Part shown: positions 5,437 through 24,988 of the stretch, one piece after another
How the letters are laid out: each line of letters starts with the position of its first letter
Numbering within the stretch: position 1 is the first letter of the stretch
Virus record (IMG/VR): IMGVR_UViG_3300043775_004301
Span: 1-30,003 of that record
Reading direction: 5' to 3' (one strand)
DNA length: 30,003 nucleotides
Origin: a virus
Notes under the pieces: model-generated
Databases searched by the model: none
What the model saw: the letters and a program-made list of their open reading frames with translations, nothing else
What the model was told of the DNA's origin: nothing
Position numbers and translations under genes: made by a program

Positions 5437-5493
5437 AGTACCGAAGAATAATTGATTATGATTGGAACGGCAAGATCTTTTTTTAAAATAAAT

Positions 5494-5565
5494 CACTCTC
5501 GCGGAGACTCGAACTCCGACTAGCAGGATGAAAACCTACTGTGCTGACCGTTACACTACGAGAGC
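5494..5565 (-). tRNA. tRNA-Glu (anticodon TTC)
   Basis: The minus strand folds as a full cloverleaf: acceptor GCTCTCG with CGAGAGT (first pair G-T), anticodon stem GTAGG/CCTGC around loop TTTTCAT giving anticodon TTC, and T arm CGGAG-TTCGAGT-CTCCG. The discriminator is G and no CCA is encoded. TTC reads GAA and GAG codons, which are abundant in this AT-rich genome. It lies between the lipoprotein gene and the block containing the E1-like genes. Confidence 0.9.
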
Positions 5566-5571
5566 ATAATC

Positions 5572-5761: not shown

Positions 5762-6334
5762 TTATTCGATCTCGAGTGCACGTCTAGGGTACCACTCTGG
5801 ATCATAAGCATCCGCCCATTCTATAATAATAGATGAGACTCCATCCTGTCTTTCATAAGCTCGTTTATAAGCAGGTAAAATCATATCAGTATCATCAAGA
5901 CGTACAACATCGATGTTCGGGCACATTAAACGAAATACCTCTGTATAGTCACCAACGTGCTGCGGCCCGGGGTTAAGAGGTGAGATAGAACCTATTGCAG
6001 TCCTCACTATTACCTTCGGTAGATTCCTGCTTGAGGGTAACATCGCTTTCAGTTTATCGAGATGATTAACTATTTGATTAGTTCCAAGTAAGAGAAAATT
6101 CCATCTAGGGAAAATACTAATCGGTACTGTACCATTCATAGCCATTCCAATAGTCATACCCATCTGCATATCTTCACACACGGGCATCTCCCATAACTTT
6201 TCATCAGGCAGATGTTTTACAGTGTTTGATAAGGCGGTACCGGGGTAACTTACGGTTTGCCCGAGAAATAAAGTATGTTCTTGTTCATTAAGCCATGTCA
6301 TAGCTCCACAAAGTTCTTCAAAGTAGTTTTTCAT
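5762..6334 (-). CDS. Thiamine-diphosphate enzyme, E1 beta-like pyrimidine-binding subunit, 190 aa
   Basis: The sequence matches the N-terminal (pyrimidine-binding) domain of 2-oxoacid dehydrogenase E1 beta subunits. It has PVCEDMQMGMTIGMAMNGTV with the catalytic Glu (E54) that activates the cofactor, then the family's W.F......I.NHL block, then VIVRTAIG, GPQHVGDYTEVF (H126) and PNIDVVRLDD. Cellular E1 beta is about 325 residues. This one stops after the first domain and lacks the C-terminal transketolase domain that normally docks on E2. With the alpha gene upstream (six bases between) it would form a minimal heterodimer. Expected chemistry is decarboxylation of a 2-oxoacid, but substrate and acceptor cannot be read from the sequence. 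Confidence 0.8.
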   Translation of the reverse strand: MKNYFEELCGAMTWLNEQEHTLFLGQTVSYPGTALSNTVKHLPDEKLWEMPVCEDMQMGMTIGMAMNGTVPISIFPRWNFLLLGTNQIVNHLDKLKAMLPSSRNLPKVIVRTAIGSISPLNPGPQHVGDYTEVFRLMCPNIDVVRLDDTDMILPAYKRAYERQDGVSSIIIEWADAYDPEWYPRRALEIE

Positions 6335-6340
6335 AAAAAA

Positions 6341-6958
6341 TTAAAATTGTATACGCTCGCCAACACCGCTATGCGGGTATTTCGAACAATACGAAAAATA
6401 AATAATTTTATCCTTCTCTGTCAAATTTTCCCGCTCGTGCGTTAATTTGGTGGTATTCCATATCTTTCGGGTATCTGTACATACTGAACGGTAATTGTCC
6501 TCAATAATAAATGTAATGGGCAGATCATGCTGCATAGCGTATTTCCAATTTTCGTGAAAACACCCCGTCTCTGCTGTCATCTCTCCAACAAAGCACCAAA
6601 CGTGATTGGTTTGGTGCTTGCGTTTTATATCAAAAGCTATACCGTTTGCAATGGGTATATTACCACCAACGATAGCAGAAGAAAAAAAGCGGTGCTCCGG
6701 AAAGCATAAAGAGATAGACTTACAATTATGAATATCGTGTATAATTTGTTTACGTGGGATACCTTTAAGCAAACATTTGTAATGACTTCTCCAGGTACAA
6801 AGAACCCAATCGTCTTTTTTTACATGTTTAAAAATATCAATAAGCTGTTGTTCGTTACCATTATCGAGATGTATAGGTGCACGAATACGCTTTTCACGAA
6901 AATGATCGCATACTTCTGTTTCAAAAGATTTCAATTCCTGTACTGTGTATTCAGTCAT
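6341..6958 (-). CDS. Thiamine-diphosphate enzyme, E1 alpha-like diphosphate-binding subunit, 205 aa
   Basis: It matches E1 alpha of pyruvate/acetoin-type dehydrogenases: WVLCTWRSHYKCLLKG near residues 51-66 (R57, H59), SSAIVGGNIPIANGIAFDIK at about 93-112, then the cofactor motif region from G125 to N155. The usual GDG of the Mg-diphosphate motif reads GEM (D to E at 126) and the final Asn pair reads DN, so metal binding may be altered. Length is 205 against about 320-370 in cellular enzymes; the C-terminal part after the motif is short. The start at 6958 overlaps the TGA of thyX (ATGA). The gene sits with a beta partner, so the pair is probably functional; which reaction it catalyses is unknown. 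Confidence 0.8.
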   Translation of the reverse strand: MTEYTVQELKSFETEVCDHFREKRIRAPIHLDNGNEQQLIDIFKHVKKDDWVLCTWRSHYKCLLKGIPRKQIIHDIHNCKSISLCFPEHRFFSSAIVGGNIPIANGIAFDIKRKHQTNHVWCFVGEMTAETGCFHENWKYAMQHDLPITFIIEDNYRSVCTDTRKIWNTTKLTHERENLTEKDKIIYFSYCSKYPHSGVGERIQF

Positions 6959-7644
6959 AAAATAAGTTTATTTTTTCTCCACGATTCTAATGTATATTTA
7001 AAAGGGTGACCAGTAATGTTTTCTACTATAATTAACATATCATTTGCTATTTCTCTTATTTCTTTTTGAGCATGTTCGCTATTGCGTAATTTTTGGAAAT
7101 TTGCAAAACTGCGCATATTAAACATTATATCAGCTTGTATCTGACTATTATATGTTTTGAAAAATCTGGCAGATTCTTTTGCTCTCTTTCTTCCAAGAAT
7201 TGGTTCTAAATCTTTGATACAAGCATGATAATAAGAATTTCCAAGGTGTGTATAAACTTCTAATAATTTTTGCCAATCTAATCCTGGATCGACACCTTCC
7301 ATAGTGTTTGGTAAGGAATTAATCTCTATACCCTTCCAATCTTCAGGTAGATATGTCTTGTCTTCCTTTAGTTCTTTATACCTAGCTGATTCAGCATTTA
7401 TATTTGCCATTCGATGTTTGAGTAAGTGTATGTGAGATGCGATATCACAATTCACAAGAAAATGCACCATACCCTTTTCAAATGGCGTTTCATGGCCATT
7501 TGACCAGAGCTGTTCAATTAACTTGGGAATTCTCTTGCGCTTATCACAATCTAGCTCTCTCGATGTACTCGTCCACGCGGAGCATGCTATTATTTCATCT
7601 GAACCATAATAACCTAATAGTTCAACAGTATTTTTCATATACAT
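6955..7644 (-). CDS. thyX: Flavin-dependent thymidylate synthase ThyX
   Basis: ThyX converts dUMP to dTMP using methylene-tetrahydrofolate, FAD and NADPH. The signature is present as KHRMANINAESARY at residues 76-89 (family R-H-R-x7-S, here with Lys in the first position), with GHETPFEKG at 50-58 and a C-terminal substrate-binding helix around FQKLRNSEHAQKEIREIA. Length (229 aa) is normal. The first codon could be 7644 (MYMKN) or 7638. The ATG at 7644 directly follows the TGA of the RNA ligase gene. With NrdA and NrdB further along it supplies dTTP for phage DNA replication. Confidence 0.95.
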   Translation of the reverse strand: MYMKNTVELLGYYGSDEIIACSAWTSTSRELDCDKRKRIPKLIEQLWSNGHETPFEKGMVHFLVNCDIASHIHLLKHRMANINAESARYKELKEDKTYLPEDWKGIEINSLPNTMEGVDPGLDWQKLLEVYTHLGNSYYHACIKDLEPILGRKRAKESARFFKTYNSQIQADIMFNMRSFANFQKLRNSEHAQKEIREIANDMLIIVENITGHPFKYTLESWRKNKLIL

Positions 7645-8724
7645 TCATAAATTATGTTCTATTAATTTTATCCATTGTTGTTTAGTAATTTCTTTATTAT
7701 CCAAAATAGCAAAAGCATAACTAGAATTTTTATTGTAATTTCTTTTTATCATTACAGCTTGTTCTTTTCTGGTTTCAACCTTTCGTATATCATGCACCAT
7801 TTCAAGGATAACGTCAATATATTTTTTTGCTTTTTCACCAGCTTCGCATATTTTTTCTATTTCGCTTTTTAATTGAACAGCTATCTCATAATCAAATTCT
7901 GTCTCGATTACCGCATAAAAGTCTTTTGCAAAAGGCATTCCCTTTTCAATATAGAATTCAATAAGATTATTGGTTGAACTTAGCTGTGATTTAACACGAT
8001 GAATAAAACAATACCAATCAGATTTTAATTTAATTCTATTTTGATTTTTGTTGTAAGAAATTACAATTCCTTCTTTACCTTTCCAATTCTTAATGTGTTG
8101 TGCAATTTCAGAAAGTTTTGTTGTGCTGCTAAAAGTAAAAGTTTGAGGAGTTTGTATTGGTCCTAGTTGTCTCCAAATACCGGTCATTTCCGAAGACGAA
8201 ATAACCGTCATGTTGCTTTTGTTTATTCCTCCAAGCAAATAAAAATCTACTTCTTTTGGTCTTACGACAATTACATTATTAGGGGTAACAAGTTCAAAAA
8301 GAAGTGTAACATGTGGATTCTCTTTTAAGAATTCAACAATCTTCGGATACTTTTGCGGAAGCAACTCAAAGTCTGAAGCGTTATTCTGTGTGGCATATGT
8401 AACTGTACCTCTCGTTCTCATAGAGAACTGATTATTGACATAATCGCAAATTACAAGAGTGCCATCTACTTTGTCAACAAATCGCCAATCATTATAATCA
8501 TCCAAGCTCGGATAACATTCTGGCTTTTCTCCAAAGTTAAAAAATTTTGGCCATCCAGAAGACAAAACATTTCCTTCTTTATCTACAACTAAAGAGCGAA
8601 AGAATAAGTTATTGTTATTCCACTTTGCGTCCATCTGAGGTGTTATTAAATAACATTCCAATCCACAAAACGTATTTGGAACTATATTAAAATACCCCTC
8701 TTCTATTGGAAGATGAACTTTCAT
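7645..8724 (-). CDS. rnlA: RNA ligase, T4 Rnl1 (RnlA)-like
   Basis: ATP-dependent RNA ligase of the T4 Rnl1 type, which seals 5'-phosphate and 3'-hydroxyl RNA ends, in T4 to repair a cleaved tRNA. Motif I is KVDGTL with the adenylated Lys at 85. Upstream is the family's PKFFNFGE block (59-66) after FFRSLVVD. Motif III is LLFELVTP (E144), motif IV is KEGIVISY (217-224) and motif V is IKLKSDWY (231-238). The length (359 aa) is close to T4 Rnl1 (374 aa). No polynucleotide kinase/phosphatase gene is in the window. A second ligase of another family is encoded at 15952-16965. The start follows directly on the stop of the AAA ATPase gene. Confidence 0.88.
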   Translation of the reverse strand: MKVHLPIEEGYFNIVPNTFCGLECYLITPQMDAKWNNNNLFFRSLVVDKEGNVLSSGWPKFFNFGEKPECYPSLDDYNDWRFVDKVDGTLVICDYVNNQFSMRTRGTVTYATQNNASDFELLPQKYPKIVEFLKENPHVTLLFELVTPNNVIVVRPKEVDFYLLGGINKSNMTVISSSEMTGIWRQLGPIQTPQTFTFSSTTKLSEIAQHIKNWKGKEGIVISYNKNQNRIKLKSDWYCFIHRVKSQLSSTNNLIEFYIEKGMPFAKDFYAVIETEFDYEIAVQLKSEIEKICEAGEKAKKYIDVILEMVHDIRKVETRKEQAVMIKRNYNKNSSYAFAILDNKEITKQQWIKLIEHNL

Positions 8725-9732
8725 TTAAAATCCCATTCTCGATGTATTAAAATCGGAAGAAGAAGGTTTTAAATCGAGTAAATTACGAATGCGTTTTATG
8801 GTTTTCTCAAATGGATTACCAAGACATTTAACAGAGATTACAAGCTCGGTCATAGCTGCAAACGTAAAGTTATCGGTTGCATCAACCCACTTCTTCGCCT
8901 CTGTATCACTGATCTTGAGCTTCTGTGTGAAATAAAACAAACGCATATCCGGCTCCGGATAACTAATCTTCACAACACGGTCAAATCGACGCGGTCTACC
9001 AATAAGACGTTTATCAAGTTTCTCGGGGTAATTGGTAGTAGCGATATTGAGGACATGGTCAATAGAATCTTCTCCATCAAGAAGGGTCAGAAGATGTGAG
9101 TCTCCGAACCTATCTACAATAGCATCGATATCTTCAAACAGACATACAATATCACGTTTAGGCTCAATCCTCGAAAAATACTTCAACCCTTCTTGTACTG
9201 TAGAGGGGTGAGTGTCACAAATAAACACTATACCACCTTTCTCCACAATTTTTTGTGTTATCTGTTTTATAAGAACCGTCTTACCGGTTCCTGGAGGACC
9301 ATAAAACATATAGCCTCGTCTCTGCAGGTAACCATGCTCTTCAAATACGCTACGCTTTTTCCAGAAGTTCTGGATTTCTCCGATAACGTCCTCAATTAAT
9401 TCATCTCTGAATGTTAACCACTCATCAGATTTTATCGGCGCCGGCTCAAAGAGTGGGAGACCGGTATCGGTTTTATGTATCTTGTACACACCCGGGCTTA
9501 ACTTTTTTACTGTCCTACCACAAGGTAAAAAGGCATCACCTTGTTGTGAGTATTGAATGTATTTTGTATTATACCGTGTAAGATCGTCTTTTTTTGCGCT
9601 TCCACTCGACCCCCCACCTGTCATCTCACGCTCAAAAGCATCCTCTTCATCTTCATCTTGTTCATACATATCTGACTCAACGCCACTTCCAAAATCATCT
9701 AATGTACCTTCGTCTTTTTTTGCTCTAAACAT
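8725..9732 (-). CDS. AAA ATPase, BCS1-like core
   Basis: A single AAA+ module follows an acidic, low-complexity N-terminus (residues 1-50, including YEQDEDEEDAFERE and a GGGSSGS linker). Walker A is GPPGTGKT at 145-152, Walker B is VCLFEDID at 196-203, sensor 1 is ATTN at 231-234, and the arginine-finger region is RLIGRPRRFDR at 242-252. The GRPRRFD sequence is typical of BCS1-like and proteasomal-type AAA proteins, which form hexamers that remodel or translocate proteins. No protease or membrane domain is attached. Its place between RNA ligase and metallophosphatase genes does not reveal a substrate. No Shine-Dalgarno sequence is visible upstream of the ATG. Confidence 0.85.
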   Translation of the reverse strand: MFRAKKDEGTLDDFGSGVESDMYEQDEDEEDAFEREMTGGGSSGSAKKDDLTRYNTKYIQYSQQGDAFLPCGRTVKKLSPGVYKIHKTDTGLPLFEPAPIKSDEWLTFRDELIEDVIGEIQNFWKKRSVFEEHGYLQRRGYMFYGPPGTGKTVLIKQITQKIVEKGGIVFICDTHPSTVQEGLKYFSRIEPKRDIVCLFEDIDAIVDRFGDSHLLTLLDGEDSIDHVLNIATTNYPEKLDKRLIGRPRRFDRVVKISYPEPDMRLFYFTQKLKISDTEAKKWVDATDNFTFAAMTELVISVKCLGNPFEKTIKRIRNLLDLKPSSSDFNTSRMGF

Positions 9733-13195: not shown

Positions 13196-13281
13196 TGGTG
13201 GGTGTGGATGGATTCGAACCAACTCAACCAAAGGTAACAGATTTACAGTCTGCTGCGACTCTCCAGCTTCGCCGCACACCC
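13196..13281 (-). tRNA. tRNA-Tyr (anticodon GTA), CCA encoded
   Basis: The minus strand forms acceptor GGGTGTG/CACACCC, an anticodon loop CTGTAAA (anticodon GTA), a long variable arm as expected for bacterial tRNA-Tyr, T arm with GTTCGAATC, discriminator A and an encoded CCA at 13196-13198. It is separated by four bases from the next tRNA. Confidence 0.92.
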
Positions 13282-13285
13282 GAAT

Positions 13286-13372
13286 TGGTAGCAGAGGCGG
13301 GATTTGAACCCGCGAGGCCGAAAGGCGGGAGGTTATGAGCCTCCTGAGATACCAGACTTCTCACACTCTGCA
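13286..13372 (-). tRNA. tRNA with CAT anticodon but class II (long variable arm) shape
   Basis: The minus strand gives acceptor TGCAGAG/CTCTGCT (position 1-72 is a T-T mismatch), D stem TGAG/CTCA with GG in the loop, anticodon stem GGAGG/CCTCC around CTCATAA (anticodon CAT), a 14-base variable region with stem GCC-TTTC-GGC, T arm GCGGG-TTCAAAT-CCCGC, discriminator A, and encoded CCA (13286-13288). A CAT anticodon normally belongs to Met or Ile2 tRNAs, which have a short variable loop. Long variable arms belong to Leu, Ser and Tyr. A search tool would probably call it tRNA-Met; its body looks more Leu-like. Confidence 0.8.
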
Positions 13373-15951: not shown

Positions 15952-16965
15952 TCAGTCTTTATAGTTTCTATTGATTAACTTGAATCCCAACGGGCGACGA
16001 GATGCAAAAGATCTAATATATGAAGACGGTCTAACTACAATTCCTTCTCCGACTTCACCACTACCATATCTCTGTGTATCTGCCAACTCTTGGAGTTTCT
16101 GTAATGGATTCTCCCATACTTTTACAGTAGATGCAACCTCTAATTTTGAGATTAAAGGAACAACATCGCATTCAAGTTCATTTTTACAAAAGTCTGCCAT
16201 CATATCATATGTCATATATGCCTGTCCCACTTTTATTTGAAATACAAATATTTTTACATCTACGAGTTTTAATGTATTTCTTTGTATTCCGTTTCCGCAC
16301 ATTTCACCTTGAATAACGCCCGACCAACTAGCTGGTATTTTTAATTTTCTAGCGCATCTCCAGAATGTAGATTTTTCGGTATCTTTCTTGGAAAGATTTC
16401 TGCTACATACTTGCGTTATTTCTCCATCTTTTACAGCGATAGTTATACTACTACCATCTAATTTTTGTGTGATTGTAATTGTTGGATCTTGTTCTAGAAC
16501 TTGTTTGACCATTTCTGGATCATTCAACCCATTGTCTTCGTCTGTTTTAGACGCAAGATGAGTTGGAAATTCTCCTTCATTTTCACCAGAAAGATTTGCA
16601 GGAAGTTCTTTTATGTATTTTTTAATACCAAGCAATGTTGTTAAATCTTCTCCTATAACAGTAGTTTCTGTAAATTGATCTGGAAATTCACTTAATGATA
16701 TTACTAGCCCTGACGAAAACTCTCCACGCAATTTAATATTTTTAATTCTAATCGGTTTGTCTGGATTTTTTTGATCTTTTAAAAATTCTGCCCAATGATA
16801 AGGCGGAACAATGGTATCAATTGTAATGAAGACGACTTTATCACCCTCCTTGTGAATTCCTTTTTTAACAATAGTTTGCCATCCGAGCACTTCTGCAATG
16901 TCAAGGGAATCAGCATTTGGGTGGCTACGTATATTTTTGATTATTTCAATAGATGCGAGCTTCAT
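15952..16965 (-). CDS. RNA ligase, DRB0094 (TIGR02306) family
   Basis: An ATP-dependent ligase of the DRB0094 family, which seals nicked RNA or RNA/DNA junctions. The N-terminal domain has the family's SHPNADSLDIAEVLGWQTIV and EGDKVVFITIDTIVP. The catalytic domain follows with motif I QKLDGSS (Lys near residue 168), motif III GVIQGEMCGNGIQ, motif IV VGEGIVVRP and motif V GFKLINRNY near the end. Length (337 aa) is normal. The frame extends to a GTG at 16971, but the ATG at 16965 (MKLASIEIIKNIRSHPNADS) gives the usual start. A TAAATA box is not visible, so it may be early or middle. It is distinct from the Rnl1-type ligase at 7645-8724. Confidence 0.88.
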   Translation of the reverse strand: MKLASIEIIKNIRSHPNADSLDIAEVLGWQTIVKKGIHKEGDKVVFITIDTIVPPYHWAEFLKDQKNPDKPIRIKNIKLRGEFSSGLVISLSEFPDQFTETTVIGEDLTTLLGIKKYIKELPANLSGENEGEFPTHLASKTDEDNGLNDPEMVKQVLEQDPTITITQKLDGSSITIAVKDGEITQVCSRNLSKKDTEKSTFWRCARKLKIPASWSGVIQGEMCGNGIQRNTLKLVDVKIFVFQIKVGQAYMTYDMMADFCKNELECDVVPLISKLEVASTVKVWENPLQKLQELADTQRYGSGEVGEGIVVRPSSYIRSFASRRPLGFKLINRNYKD

Positions 16966-17005
16966 ACTCACATATCATATATACTAGCACAAAAGAGAGC
17001 AAGTA

Positions 17006-22854: not shown

Positions 22855-24081
22855 ATGAGTGTTAAAATTGCAATGATAGGTTGCGGTAAGCTCGGTCGGT
22901 CGTGTGGTGAAGTTATGAGCAAGATGCATGATGTTGTAGGTTTTGATATAAACCCGCATACAAGTTGCAGCTTCCCGTGTACTAGAAGTATACAGGAGGC
23001 AATAACAGATCGTGATATAATCTTTATTGCAGTACCTACACCGCACAATAAAGAATATGGTGGAGAAAAACCAACACATCACCTACCACCAAAGGATTTT
23101 GACTATACCGCTGTAAAAAGTGTAGTGAGTGAAATTAATAAGTTTGTTAAGAAAAAGCAAACAGTGGTACTCATATCAACGGTCTTGCCTGGAACTGTTA
23201 GAAGAGAGATTGCACCATTATTGACAAAAACCTGTCTTATATATAATCCGTATCTCATCGCAATTGATTCTGTGAGAGAAGATCTTATCGATCCTGATTG
23301 CCTCATTATTGGTGTCGAGACAGGGAAATGTACATTACAAGTAAAACGTTTAATAGAATTTTACAATAGCTTTATAATCAAAAAAAATGTACCAGTAAAC
23401 ATCGGTACATGGGAAGAAGCGGAGTCAATTAAAATATTTTATAATACATTTATTTCGTTTAAGCTTGCGTTTGTAAACATGATACAAGATGTTGCAGAGT
23501 ATGTTGGTAATATGAATGTCGATGTTGTTACTACAGCACTCAAGACTTCAACTAAGCGCATTGTGAGTCAACGGTATATGAATGCAGGGATGGGTGACGG
23601 TGGTGCATGTCACCCGAGAGATAATATCGCTCTTAGATTTTTGTCACAAAAAGCAAAACTTGGGTATGATTTTTTTCAAAATATTGTCATCACAAGAGAT
23701 AAGCAGGCAAAAAATATTGCAGAATTTGTAACACGTGTTGCAATACAGCATAACAACGATGTCGTAATGCATGGCATTTCTTACAAGCCGAATACTTGCT
23801 ACACAGATGGTAGCTACAGTCTTTTAATAAAGTCATTTTTGGAAAAAAATAACATTCGTACATGTGTTATTGATCCGTATGTACATCAGTGTGATGCAGT
23901 ACAATATGATATACACTCTCGTAAACCACACATTATTTTTCTATCACATTCCATTAAGATAGATAAAGATTTATTCTGTGTATTTCCGAAAAACAGTATA
24001 ATAATTGACCCGTGGCGCACATTTAAGAGTAAGCGGTATAAAGTATTACAATATGGCAACACAAAAAACAAACGCATTTGA
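22855..24081 (+). CDS. UDP-glucose/GDP-mannose dehydrogenase family protein, 408 aa
   Basis: An NAD-dependent nucleotide-sugar dehydrogenase, which oxidises the sugar C6 twice to the uronate. The N-terminal Rossmann motif is GCGKLG (9-14) with D31 for the NAD ribose. Next come AVPTP (59-63), STVLPGT (108-114), the EAESIKIFYNTF block (E188 to F199, with Lys193 and Asn197), and the catalytic Cys in GDGGACHPRDN (C252). A C-terminal dehydrogenase domain follows (MHGISYKPNT, then VIDPYVHQ). All key residues are kept. It could alter host or virion polysaccharides. The end overlaps the oxygenase start by 29 bases. Confidence 0.88.
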   Translation: MSVKIAMIGCGKLGRSCGEVMSKMHDVVGFDINPHTSCSFPCTRSIQEAITDRDIIFIAVPTPHNKEYGGEKPTHHLPPKDFDYTAVKSVVSEINKFVKKKQTVVLISTVLPGTVRREIAPLLTKTCLIYNPYLIAIDSVREDLIDPDCLIIGVETGKCTLQVKRLIEFYNSFIIKKNVPVNIGTWEEAESIKIFYNTFISFKLAFVNMIQDVAEYVGNMNVDVVTTALKTSTKRIVSQRYMNAGMGDGGACHPRDNIALRFLSQKAKLGYDFFQNIVITRDKQAKNIAEFVTRVAIQHNNDVVMHGISYKPNTCYTDGSYSLLIKSFLEKNNIRTCVIDPYVHQCDAVQYDIHSRKPHIIFLSHSIKIDKDLFCVFPKNSIIIDPWRTFKSKRYKVLQYGNTKNKRI

Positions 24082-24766
24082 TGATCCGGTTGCAATACGG
24101 GAACATATTATAGATCGTGTATGTGATATCTCTATCTATAAAACACCATATCCCCACGCAATAATTGATAATTTCTTTCCAGACGATATAGTACGTAAAA
24201 TAGATAATTTTTTTCCATGTGTTGCACAATCAGTGTTTGATAGCGTTGATGAAACTAAAGAGCAAAAAAGATATAGACGTAGTTTTTTTGGCAATGATAC
24301 TGATAAGACATCACTCGAGCGCACGTTAGATGAAGTTTATAATGTCGAATTACTAAAGTTCTTTCTTGAGAAGTTTGATATACAGTATAATACTAATTAT
24401 GCATGGGGTATACAGTATGTATGGGATTATAGTGTAAGAGGGCACAACGCTTTACCGCCACATGTTGATCAGCCATCAAAAGTTCTGTCGTTTGTTCATT
24501 ACTTCCCAATAACCTGTATAGAGAACGGTAAGCCAAAAGTATTAGAAATACCCGGTACTGATATTCTCGTACAAAATACAGACGGAACATTTGCAGAACA
24601 CACATGCGTAGAAGCAAAGAGAAATAGATGTTTAATTTTTGAAAAAAGTACAAAGTCATGGCACGCAGTAAAGGAAACAAAGACACCGCGACGTACAATT
24701 ACTGCATTTATAATTGATAAACGTGTCACAGGAGGTAAAAATGGATCCTTTCTGTATCTAAAATAG
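24053..24766 (+). CDS. 2-oxoglutarate/Fe(II)-dependent oxygenase, 237 aa
   Basis: The start is at 24053 (MATQKTNAFDDPVAIREHII), since the frame's earlier ATG at 24005 lies well within the dehydrogenase gene. The fold is prolyl-hydroxylase-like: YPHAIIDNFFPDDIVRKI (33-50) is the usual opening, the iron ligands are H137 and D139 in PPHVDQP and H204 in SWHAV, and the 2-oxoglutarate-binding Arg is in PRRTITAFI (213/214). The substrate could be a protein, a sugar or a nucleotide. Such enzymes are common in marine T4-like phages. It overlaps the dehydrogenase gene, so the two are coupled and may act on the same product (inference). Confidence 0.85.
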   Translation: MATQKTNAFDDPVAIREHIIDRVCDISIYKTPYPHAIIDNFFPDDIVRKIDNFFPCVAQSVFDSVDETKEQKRYRRSFFGNDTDKTSLERTLDEVYNVELLKFFLEKFDIQYNTNYAWGIQYVWDYSVRGHNALPPHVDQPSKVLSFVHYFPITCIENGKPKVLEIPGTDILVQNTDGTFAEHTCVEAKRNRCLIFEKSTKSWHAVKETKTPRRTITAFIIDKRVTGGKNGSFLYLK

Positions 24767-24835: not shown

Positions 24836-24911
24836 GCACGAGTAGCTTAGTGGCTAAAGCAGTAGATTTACATTCTACCTACCGGGGGTTCGAGTCCCTC
24901 CTCGTGTACCA
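24836..24911 (+). tRNA. tRNA-Val (anticodon TAC), CCA encoded
   Basis: Acceptor GCACGAG/CTCGTGT (first pair G-T), anticodon stem GTAGA/TCTAC around TTTACAT (anticodon TAC), a T arm with TTCGAGT, discriminator A and encoded CCA at 24909-24911. It would read GTA and other GTN codons. Confidence 0.92.
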
Positions 24912-24915
24912 TATA

Positions 24916-24988
24916 GGGGGTATAGCTCAGTTGGTAGAGCGCCAGCTTTGCAAGCTGGATGTCAGGGGTTCGAATCCCCTTGCCTCCA
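24916..24988 (+). tRNA. tRNA-Ala (anticodon TGC)
   Basis: Acceptor GGGGGTA/TGCCTCC, D arm with AGCTCAGTTGGTAGAGC, anticodon stem CCAGC/GCTGG around TTTGCAA (anticodon TGC), T arm AGGGG-TTCGAAT-CCCCT, discriminator A. No CCA is encoded, unlike the tRNA-Val four bases upstream. Confidence 0.95.

Follow-up and report, generated by a model that had tools for sequence, protein, structure and literature searches.

The 30,003 nucleotides analyzed here, hereafter the window (positions 1 to 30,003 of IMG/VR virus record IMGVR_UViG_3300043775_004301), carry two adjacent genes that resemble the E1 alpha and E1 beta subunits of 2-oxoacid dehydrogenases in strongly shortened form, and the question raised by this locus is what reaction so reduced a thiamine diphosphate (ThDP) enzyme might catalyze for a virus. 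The open reading frames of 205 and 190 aa, in which a sequence-only reading had recognized E1 alpha and E1 beta, were matched in Pfam by E1_dh (2.8e-14, profile positions 4-179 of 300) and Transket_pyr (1.7e-8), respectively, in agreement with that reading. The profile searches it had proposed also place both genes in a single family, PHROG 34187, with alpha corresponding to the first half of the profile (6.1e-48, positions 4-198 of 405) and beta to the second (6.5e-21, positions 239-400 of 405). The C-terminal domain (TKC) with which E1 beta docks on E2 had been described as absent, and rightly: beta stops at 190 aa and has no Transketolase_C match in the Pfam search. The pair is a split, E1-derived ThDP enzyme composed of the PP and PYR modules only, without TKC.

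Alpha and beta lie 6 nt apart in window coordinates (Table 1), and the stop codon of thyX overlaps the start codon of alpha by 4 nt (ATGA); thyX and alpha are probably co-transcribed. A promoter scan of the pair's region gave a score about 2 standard deviations above shuffles, an uninformative margin. Both genes recur, 100% identical at the DNA level, in a second contig (L005). Among other features, the window holds five tRNA genes (Glu, Tyr, Met, Val, and Ala; 5493-5566, 13196-13372, and 24836-24988), that for tRNA-Glu being directly downstream of the pair, as well as two distinct RNA ligases (7645-8724 and 15952-16971), one of the phrog_562 type and one of the PF09414 type with a PHA02142 OB-fold.

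Table 1. Positions of the gene pair, its upstream neighbor, and a nucleotide-sugar gene in the window.
Feature	Position	Strand	Basis
Alpha subunit, PP (diphosphate-binding) module, 205 aa	6341..6958	(-)	Pfam E1_dh, PHROG 34187, AlphaFold2, VIA-align
Beta subunit, PYR (aminopyrimidine-binding) module, 190 aa, without TKC	5762..6334	(-)	Pfam Transket_pyr, PHROG 34187
thyX, upstream neighbor of alpha	6955..7644	(-)	Thy1 2e-30
UDP-glucose/GDP-mannose dehydrogenase-like gene	22855..24081	(+)	PF03721 5.6e-18, PF00984 1.1e-15

A single-protein search of viral contigs with the window's alpha returned the same virus only, and alignments were therefore needed as queries. Alignment-based scans of viral contigs then yielded at least 564 relatives by beta and at least 265 by alpha, and bacterial and archaeal assemblies, most of them MAGs, supplied 11 family loci. 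Leaving aside the window's own locus, the two modules occur together in 92 of 94 loci, with contig ends accounting for the remaining two, and in 80 of 80 loci of a second, beta-derived set, although these counts are over loci from contigs of which many are related to each other and hence non-independent. In relatives the genes are adjacent, 1-9 kb apart, or fused, and their distance matrices are closely correlated (mirror-tree r 0.88 for 56 sequences, against a maximum of 0.22 in 2000 permutations). When full-length E1s are included in the trees, the short family, whose betas have a median length of 181 aa, forms a single clade on a long stem (support 100/99 and 100/100), within which the window belongs to a clade of 11 rows (support 100/96). 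The pair thus represents a deep, monophyletic, and widespread viral family that is mostly unannotated.

The earlier reading, which named no described phage enzyme of this shape, is incomplete here, given PHROG 34187, its sequenced cyanophage members, and the at least 564 viral matches. The known members are single-chain fusions of about 400 aa from cyanophages S-SM2 and P-TIM68, located inside LPS-like clusters and annotated as "transketolase central region-containing protein"; S-SM2 is among the genomes with LPS gene clusters in a 2010 cyanophage paper (PMC3037559). No paper on this phage ThDP family turned up in literature searches. The split form is also present in a 735-kb phage. In four loci (L028, 10481-12223; L029; L078, 5214-6989; and L081), beta is fused to an extra domain of about 400 aa, for a total of 580-591 aa; this domain has no Pfam match, is joined by blastp clustering to a large phage family, and may be glycosyltransferase-like. 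A conserved protein of about 136 aa, likewise with no Pfam match, recurs near the pair in 34 loci (e.g., L006, 1171-1572, and L081, 5746-6156). L006 further contains, in the same phage sugar cluster as its short pair, a second, longer split ThDP pair (7215-8932; 277 + 303 aa) with a Transketolase_C domain, which has a long branch and could not be placed in the joint tree.

Structure prediction, another proposal of the sequence-only reading, bore it out for alpha, which models well (AlphaFold2 pLDDT 94.0, pTM 0.90) with a PP fold like that of E1 alpha, superposing on human PDH E1 alpha with Z 20.3 and rmsd 2.2 over 196 residues (VIA-align). Alpha H196 is invariant in 85/85 sequences and, judged from the ends of the alignment ranges only (model residue 200 = human 267, 198 = BCKD 293, 197 = Bacillus 272), appears to coincide with the catalytic histidine of E1 alpha (human His263, BCKD His291, Bacillus His271). 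Much of the E1 alpha helical region is lost in the short family, and the model suggests that alpha is not simply cut off, its last strand being kept after internal deletions. The description of two truncated single-module subunits therefore applies insofar as both are reduced to their cofactor modules, but not to the manner in which alpha was shortened, as the last strand and H196 are kept. For the alpha/beta dimer, the fused homologue L095 served as a natural stand-in; its model (pLDDT 91.6, pTM 0.93) can be superposed as one body on residues 4-523 of E. coli transketolase (354 residues, rmsd 3.3 A, Z 20.5), and both modules are therefore in the transketolase arrangement, with TKC alone missing.

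Catalytic residues are conserved, and in beta E54, the catalytic Glu correctly reported as kept, is invariant in 79/79 relatives together with R77, F80, H91, and H126. Window alpha carries H30, H59, and H196 and a metal site of G125-E126-M127 and N155, so that GEM...E-D-N is read where ThDP enzymes have GDG...N(N). Across the family the motif is GDM in 75/85 and GDG in 7/85, with N155 in 84/85; GEM is also seen in L087 and, within the second set, in 6 of 69 relatives with a readable motif, including L107/L217. Because it is recurrent in relatives, including the closest one among the matches listed, GEM is regarded as a tolerated natural variant: the substitution for GDG had been read correctly, but in a family whose norm is GDM it would not amount to a lost motif. 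Chance or misannotated reading frames are ruled out by conservation, co-inheritance, and the structure model.

What the family does is suggested mainly by its neighbors. SDR/epimerase genes are found in 80 relative loci and RmlC-like epimerases in 62; in 42/64 loci of a large aquatic clade, the gene immediately preceding alpha is RmlC, mostly with a 4-nt overlap. All ten other members of the window's clade (10/10) have near the pair a DegT-family protein, which is read as a ColD/RfbH-type sugar 3-dehydrase. At the PLP position, full-length DegT-family neighbors with a readable motif have His, or in a few cases Gln or Leu, and not Lys. A review gives His in place of the PLP-binding Lys as diagnostic of 3-dehydratases, the enzymes that produce 3,6-dideoxy-4-keto sugars (PMC8987622). 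Against the PDB, the 3-dehydrase neighbor matched ColD best (1.7e-50, versus 3e-35 for the best aminotransferase). Neighboring DegT proteins in A. oryzae keep Lys, and the motif test therefore discriminates; true aminotransferases in L105 read Lys. An aminotransferase reading of the DegT neighbors is ruled out by the His motif.

The association was also found in contigs that had not been used in forming the idea: of 40 new contigs nearest the window's beta, 37 carry a 3-dehydrase, with His in all 30 sequences read and beta within 1.5 kb in 19 of these 30, while a 3-dehydrase protein is present in 65 of 50,697 phage records. The arrangement varies over the family. Only 4/64 loci of the large clade have a 3-dehydrase within the flanks, and the fused clade, with a GDG or GDA motif, has a zinc alcohol dehydrogenase upstream in place of the 3-dehydrase. 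L217, the closest relative among the matches listed, encodes an HddA-like kinase, an HldE-II-like nucleotidyltransferase, a 4,6-dehydratase-like SDR, glycosyltransferases, and two B12 radical SAM proteins; no 3-dehydrase is present in its 17.8-kb contig. B12-binding radical SAM proteins, scoring as HpnJ-like and AprD4-like, are repeated neighbors of the pair within the window's clade (L217, 8960-10504 and 15737-17122; L007, 7896-9440).

A cellular parallel is provided by Azospirillum plasmids, on which full-length E1 alpha, full-length E1 beta, and a His-type 3-dehydrase are consecutive; an SDR lies nearby, and no E2 is listed. Among full-length betas, the equivalent of beta R77 is Arg in 4/4 that have a link to sugar or antibiotic clusters and Phe or Tyr in 5/5 E2-linked ones; in a fifth, divergent full-length beta, that of the second L006 pair, Arg is one position off.

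Taken with the retained chemistry and the lack of a lipoyl partner, the NDP-4-keto-deoxysugar neighbors lead us to read the pair as a minimal AviB1/B2-like carboligase that adds an acyl branch to an NDP-4-keto-deoxysugar, a reading to which we give a probability of roughly 60%. The more general proposition of a carboligase in unusual-sugar synthesis is highly probable, and a 4-keto-deoxysugar as the acceptor stands at about even odds. Alpha would bind the diphosphate and Mg2+ as the PP module, and beta would serve as the PYR module, in which E54 would activate the aminopyrimidine, with ThDP held between the two as in transketolase and E1. With TKC gone and the helical region of E1 alpha largely lost, the acyl group would not be handed over to a lipoyl E2; carbon-carbon ligation in activated-sugar biosynthesis probably takes place instead. 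Most likely, a 2-oxoacid such as pyruvate would be decarboxylated by the pair and the two-carbon acyl anion directed to the ketone of the NDP-4-keto-deoxysugar; the product would be a branched sugar destined for a glycan that the phage encodes. This branching would resemble the reaction proposed for YerE and for enzymes of the AviB1/AviB2 type. We infer the donor, the acceptor, and the same role for the copy in the window.

The E1 ancestry of the pair also invites the suggestion, made in the sequence-only reading, of a minimal 2-oxoacid decarboxylase or of a protein acting as a decoy for, or stealing from, the host dehydrogenase complex, and decarboxylation would in any case be the first half-reaction. 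This is nonetheless very improbable: the TKC/E2-docking domain is missing, the E1 GSMH loop histidine is lost in the phage family, the sugar-cluster context of relatives is consistent, and E2 (PF00198) was detected in 0/24 viral records (the window and 23 related ones) by a search that was positive in 10 control genomes. The earlier observation that the window lacks an E2 gene is thereby upheld and extended, whereas the diversion of a host complex that had been built on it finds no support; of the other proposal, a minimal decarboxylase or aldehyde-transfer enzyme, the aldehyde transfer comes close to the reading preferred here, and a stand-alone decarboxylase is disfavored. Scores of the window pair against curated E1 models fall far below their cut-offs (TIGR03182, 90 bits versus 394; NF006667, 34 versus 321), as do those against the transketolase model NF004559 (19-33 bits versus 488). 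A central-carbon auxiliary gene was rejected, there being no TKC and no E2 in the 24 viral records. A sulfopyruvate or phosphonopyruvate decarboxylase is excluded as the wrong Pfam lineage; window alpha scores 19.4 bits against TPP_enzyme_C, below the 21.9 cut-off, and window beta has no TPP_enzyme_N match in Pfam.

Rather unlikely, though less so than a decarboxylase or decoy, is a transketolase-type ketol transferase, which would move a two-carbon ketol between sugar phosphates to form an unusual C7-C9 ketose that HddA/HldE-like kinases would phosphorylate after its isomerization and before its activation to an NDP-sugar. The HddA-like kinases, HddC- or HldE-like nucleotidyltransferases, and phosphoheptose isomerase or cupin genes beside the pair would suit such a pathway, as would the PP-PYR layout and the kept alpha His residues and beta H126, which we take to be positions common to E1 and transketolase. 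However, the pair is associated with a 3-dehydrase and RmlC, which act after NDP activation, its sequence is nearer E1 than transketolase, and sedoheptulose-7-phosphate is already made by cells. The window itself poses a separate problem, since its pair adjoins thyX outside any sugar cluster and no 3-dehydrase occurs in its 30 kb. The lack of an adjoining cluster, the GEM motif, and several other substitutions at conserved sites could point to a relic or moonlighting remnant that has left its sugar cluster and whose metal motif has drifted, but both frames are intact, every catalytic His and Glu is retained, alpha models very well, and relatives with intact clusters (L087, L217) have GEM too, which makes a relic distinctly improbable. 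Only one clear nucleotide-sugar gene was found in the window, the dehydrogenase-like gene of Table 1; it lies 16 kb from the pair and is a possible pathway partner; homologues about 50% identical to it are present in viral loci L037 and L038, both of which also have the pair. This gene overlaps a 2OG-Fe(II) oxygenase gene (22855-24766 together).

As the pair usually lies among unusual-sugar genes, the acyl-branching carboligase favored here would most likely serve rare surface sugar branches or skeletons and not central metabolism. It may even be, tentatively and at somewhat less than even odds, that many aquatic phages carry the smallest known PP-PYR carboligase and combine it with a ColD-type dehydrase or an RmlC-type epimerase to produce branched or higher-carbon sugars of their own, which would decorate virions, DNA, or the infected cell. 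An odd truncated gene pair has in this way become a large viral enzyme family with a testable reaction. Confirmation of that reaction would provide a minimal ThDP scaffold for tertiary alcohols, remove a likely misreading of these genes as central-carbon auxiliary metabolic genes, and point to phages as makers of rare branched sugars; if the proposal is true, phages would have a route of their own to sugars resembling yersiniose.

Several known systems resemble the pair in part. Sulfopyruvate decarboxylase ComD/ComE also combines a small PYR subunit with a separate small PP subunit and has no third domain, but belongs to a different ThDP lineage. Transketolase, including a split-gene transketolase (6yak), has the same PP-then-PYR order and arrangement, from which the phage pair differs in lacking TKC and in its E1-like sequence, and the cyanophage proteins of PHROG 34187 (S-SM2, P-TIM68) are the fused form of the same family. 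YerE, the ThDP flavoenzyme of yersiniose formation, acts on a CDP-3,6-dideoxy-4-keto sugar (PMC12247030); this substrate is a 3-dehydrase product, and the same pairing of ThDP enzyme and 3-dehydrase is found in the phage relatives, although YerE is a decarboxylase-superfamily protein and the phage pair is E1-derived. The two-subunit, E1-like (alphaKADH2) sugar-branching carboligases comprise AviB1/AviB2, Pau11/Pau12, EvdU5/EvdS3, and KbDH-alpha/beta (PMC12247030, PMC4425429, PMC10338323), the role of AviB1/AviB2 and Pau11/Pau12 being assigned by genetics and proposal (PMC4425429) and KbDH using pyruvate and keto-pyran surrogates as substrates in vitro (PMC12247030). Like the phage family, they are E1 alpha/beta-like pairs without E2/E3, in their case in deoxysugar pathways; an E1-like pair without E2 likewise stands beside keto-deoxysugar enzymes in relatives of the window's clade, while the window fragment is without a 3-dehydrase. 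They are full length (Pau11 325 and Pau12 345 aa), whereas TKC and E1 alpha helices are missing from the phage family, in which the metal motif reads GDM, the two chains are fused in some members, and the sequences group in a deep clade of their own. Beta R77 and alpha P28 are common to the phage family and to the full-length pairs that bacteria encode next to a His-type 3-dehydrase. The phage family would be related to the E1-type sugar-branching carboligases, though devoid of TKC and widespread in viruses.
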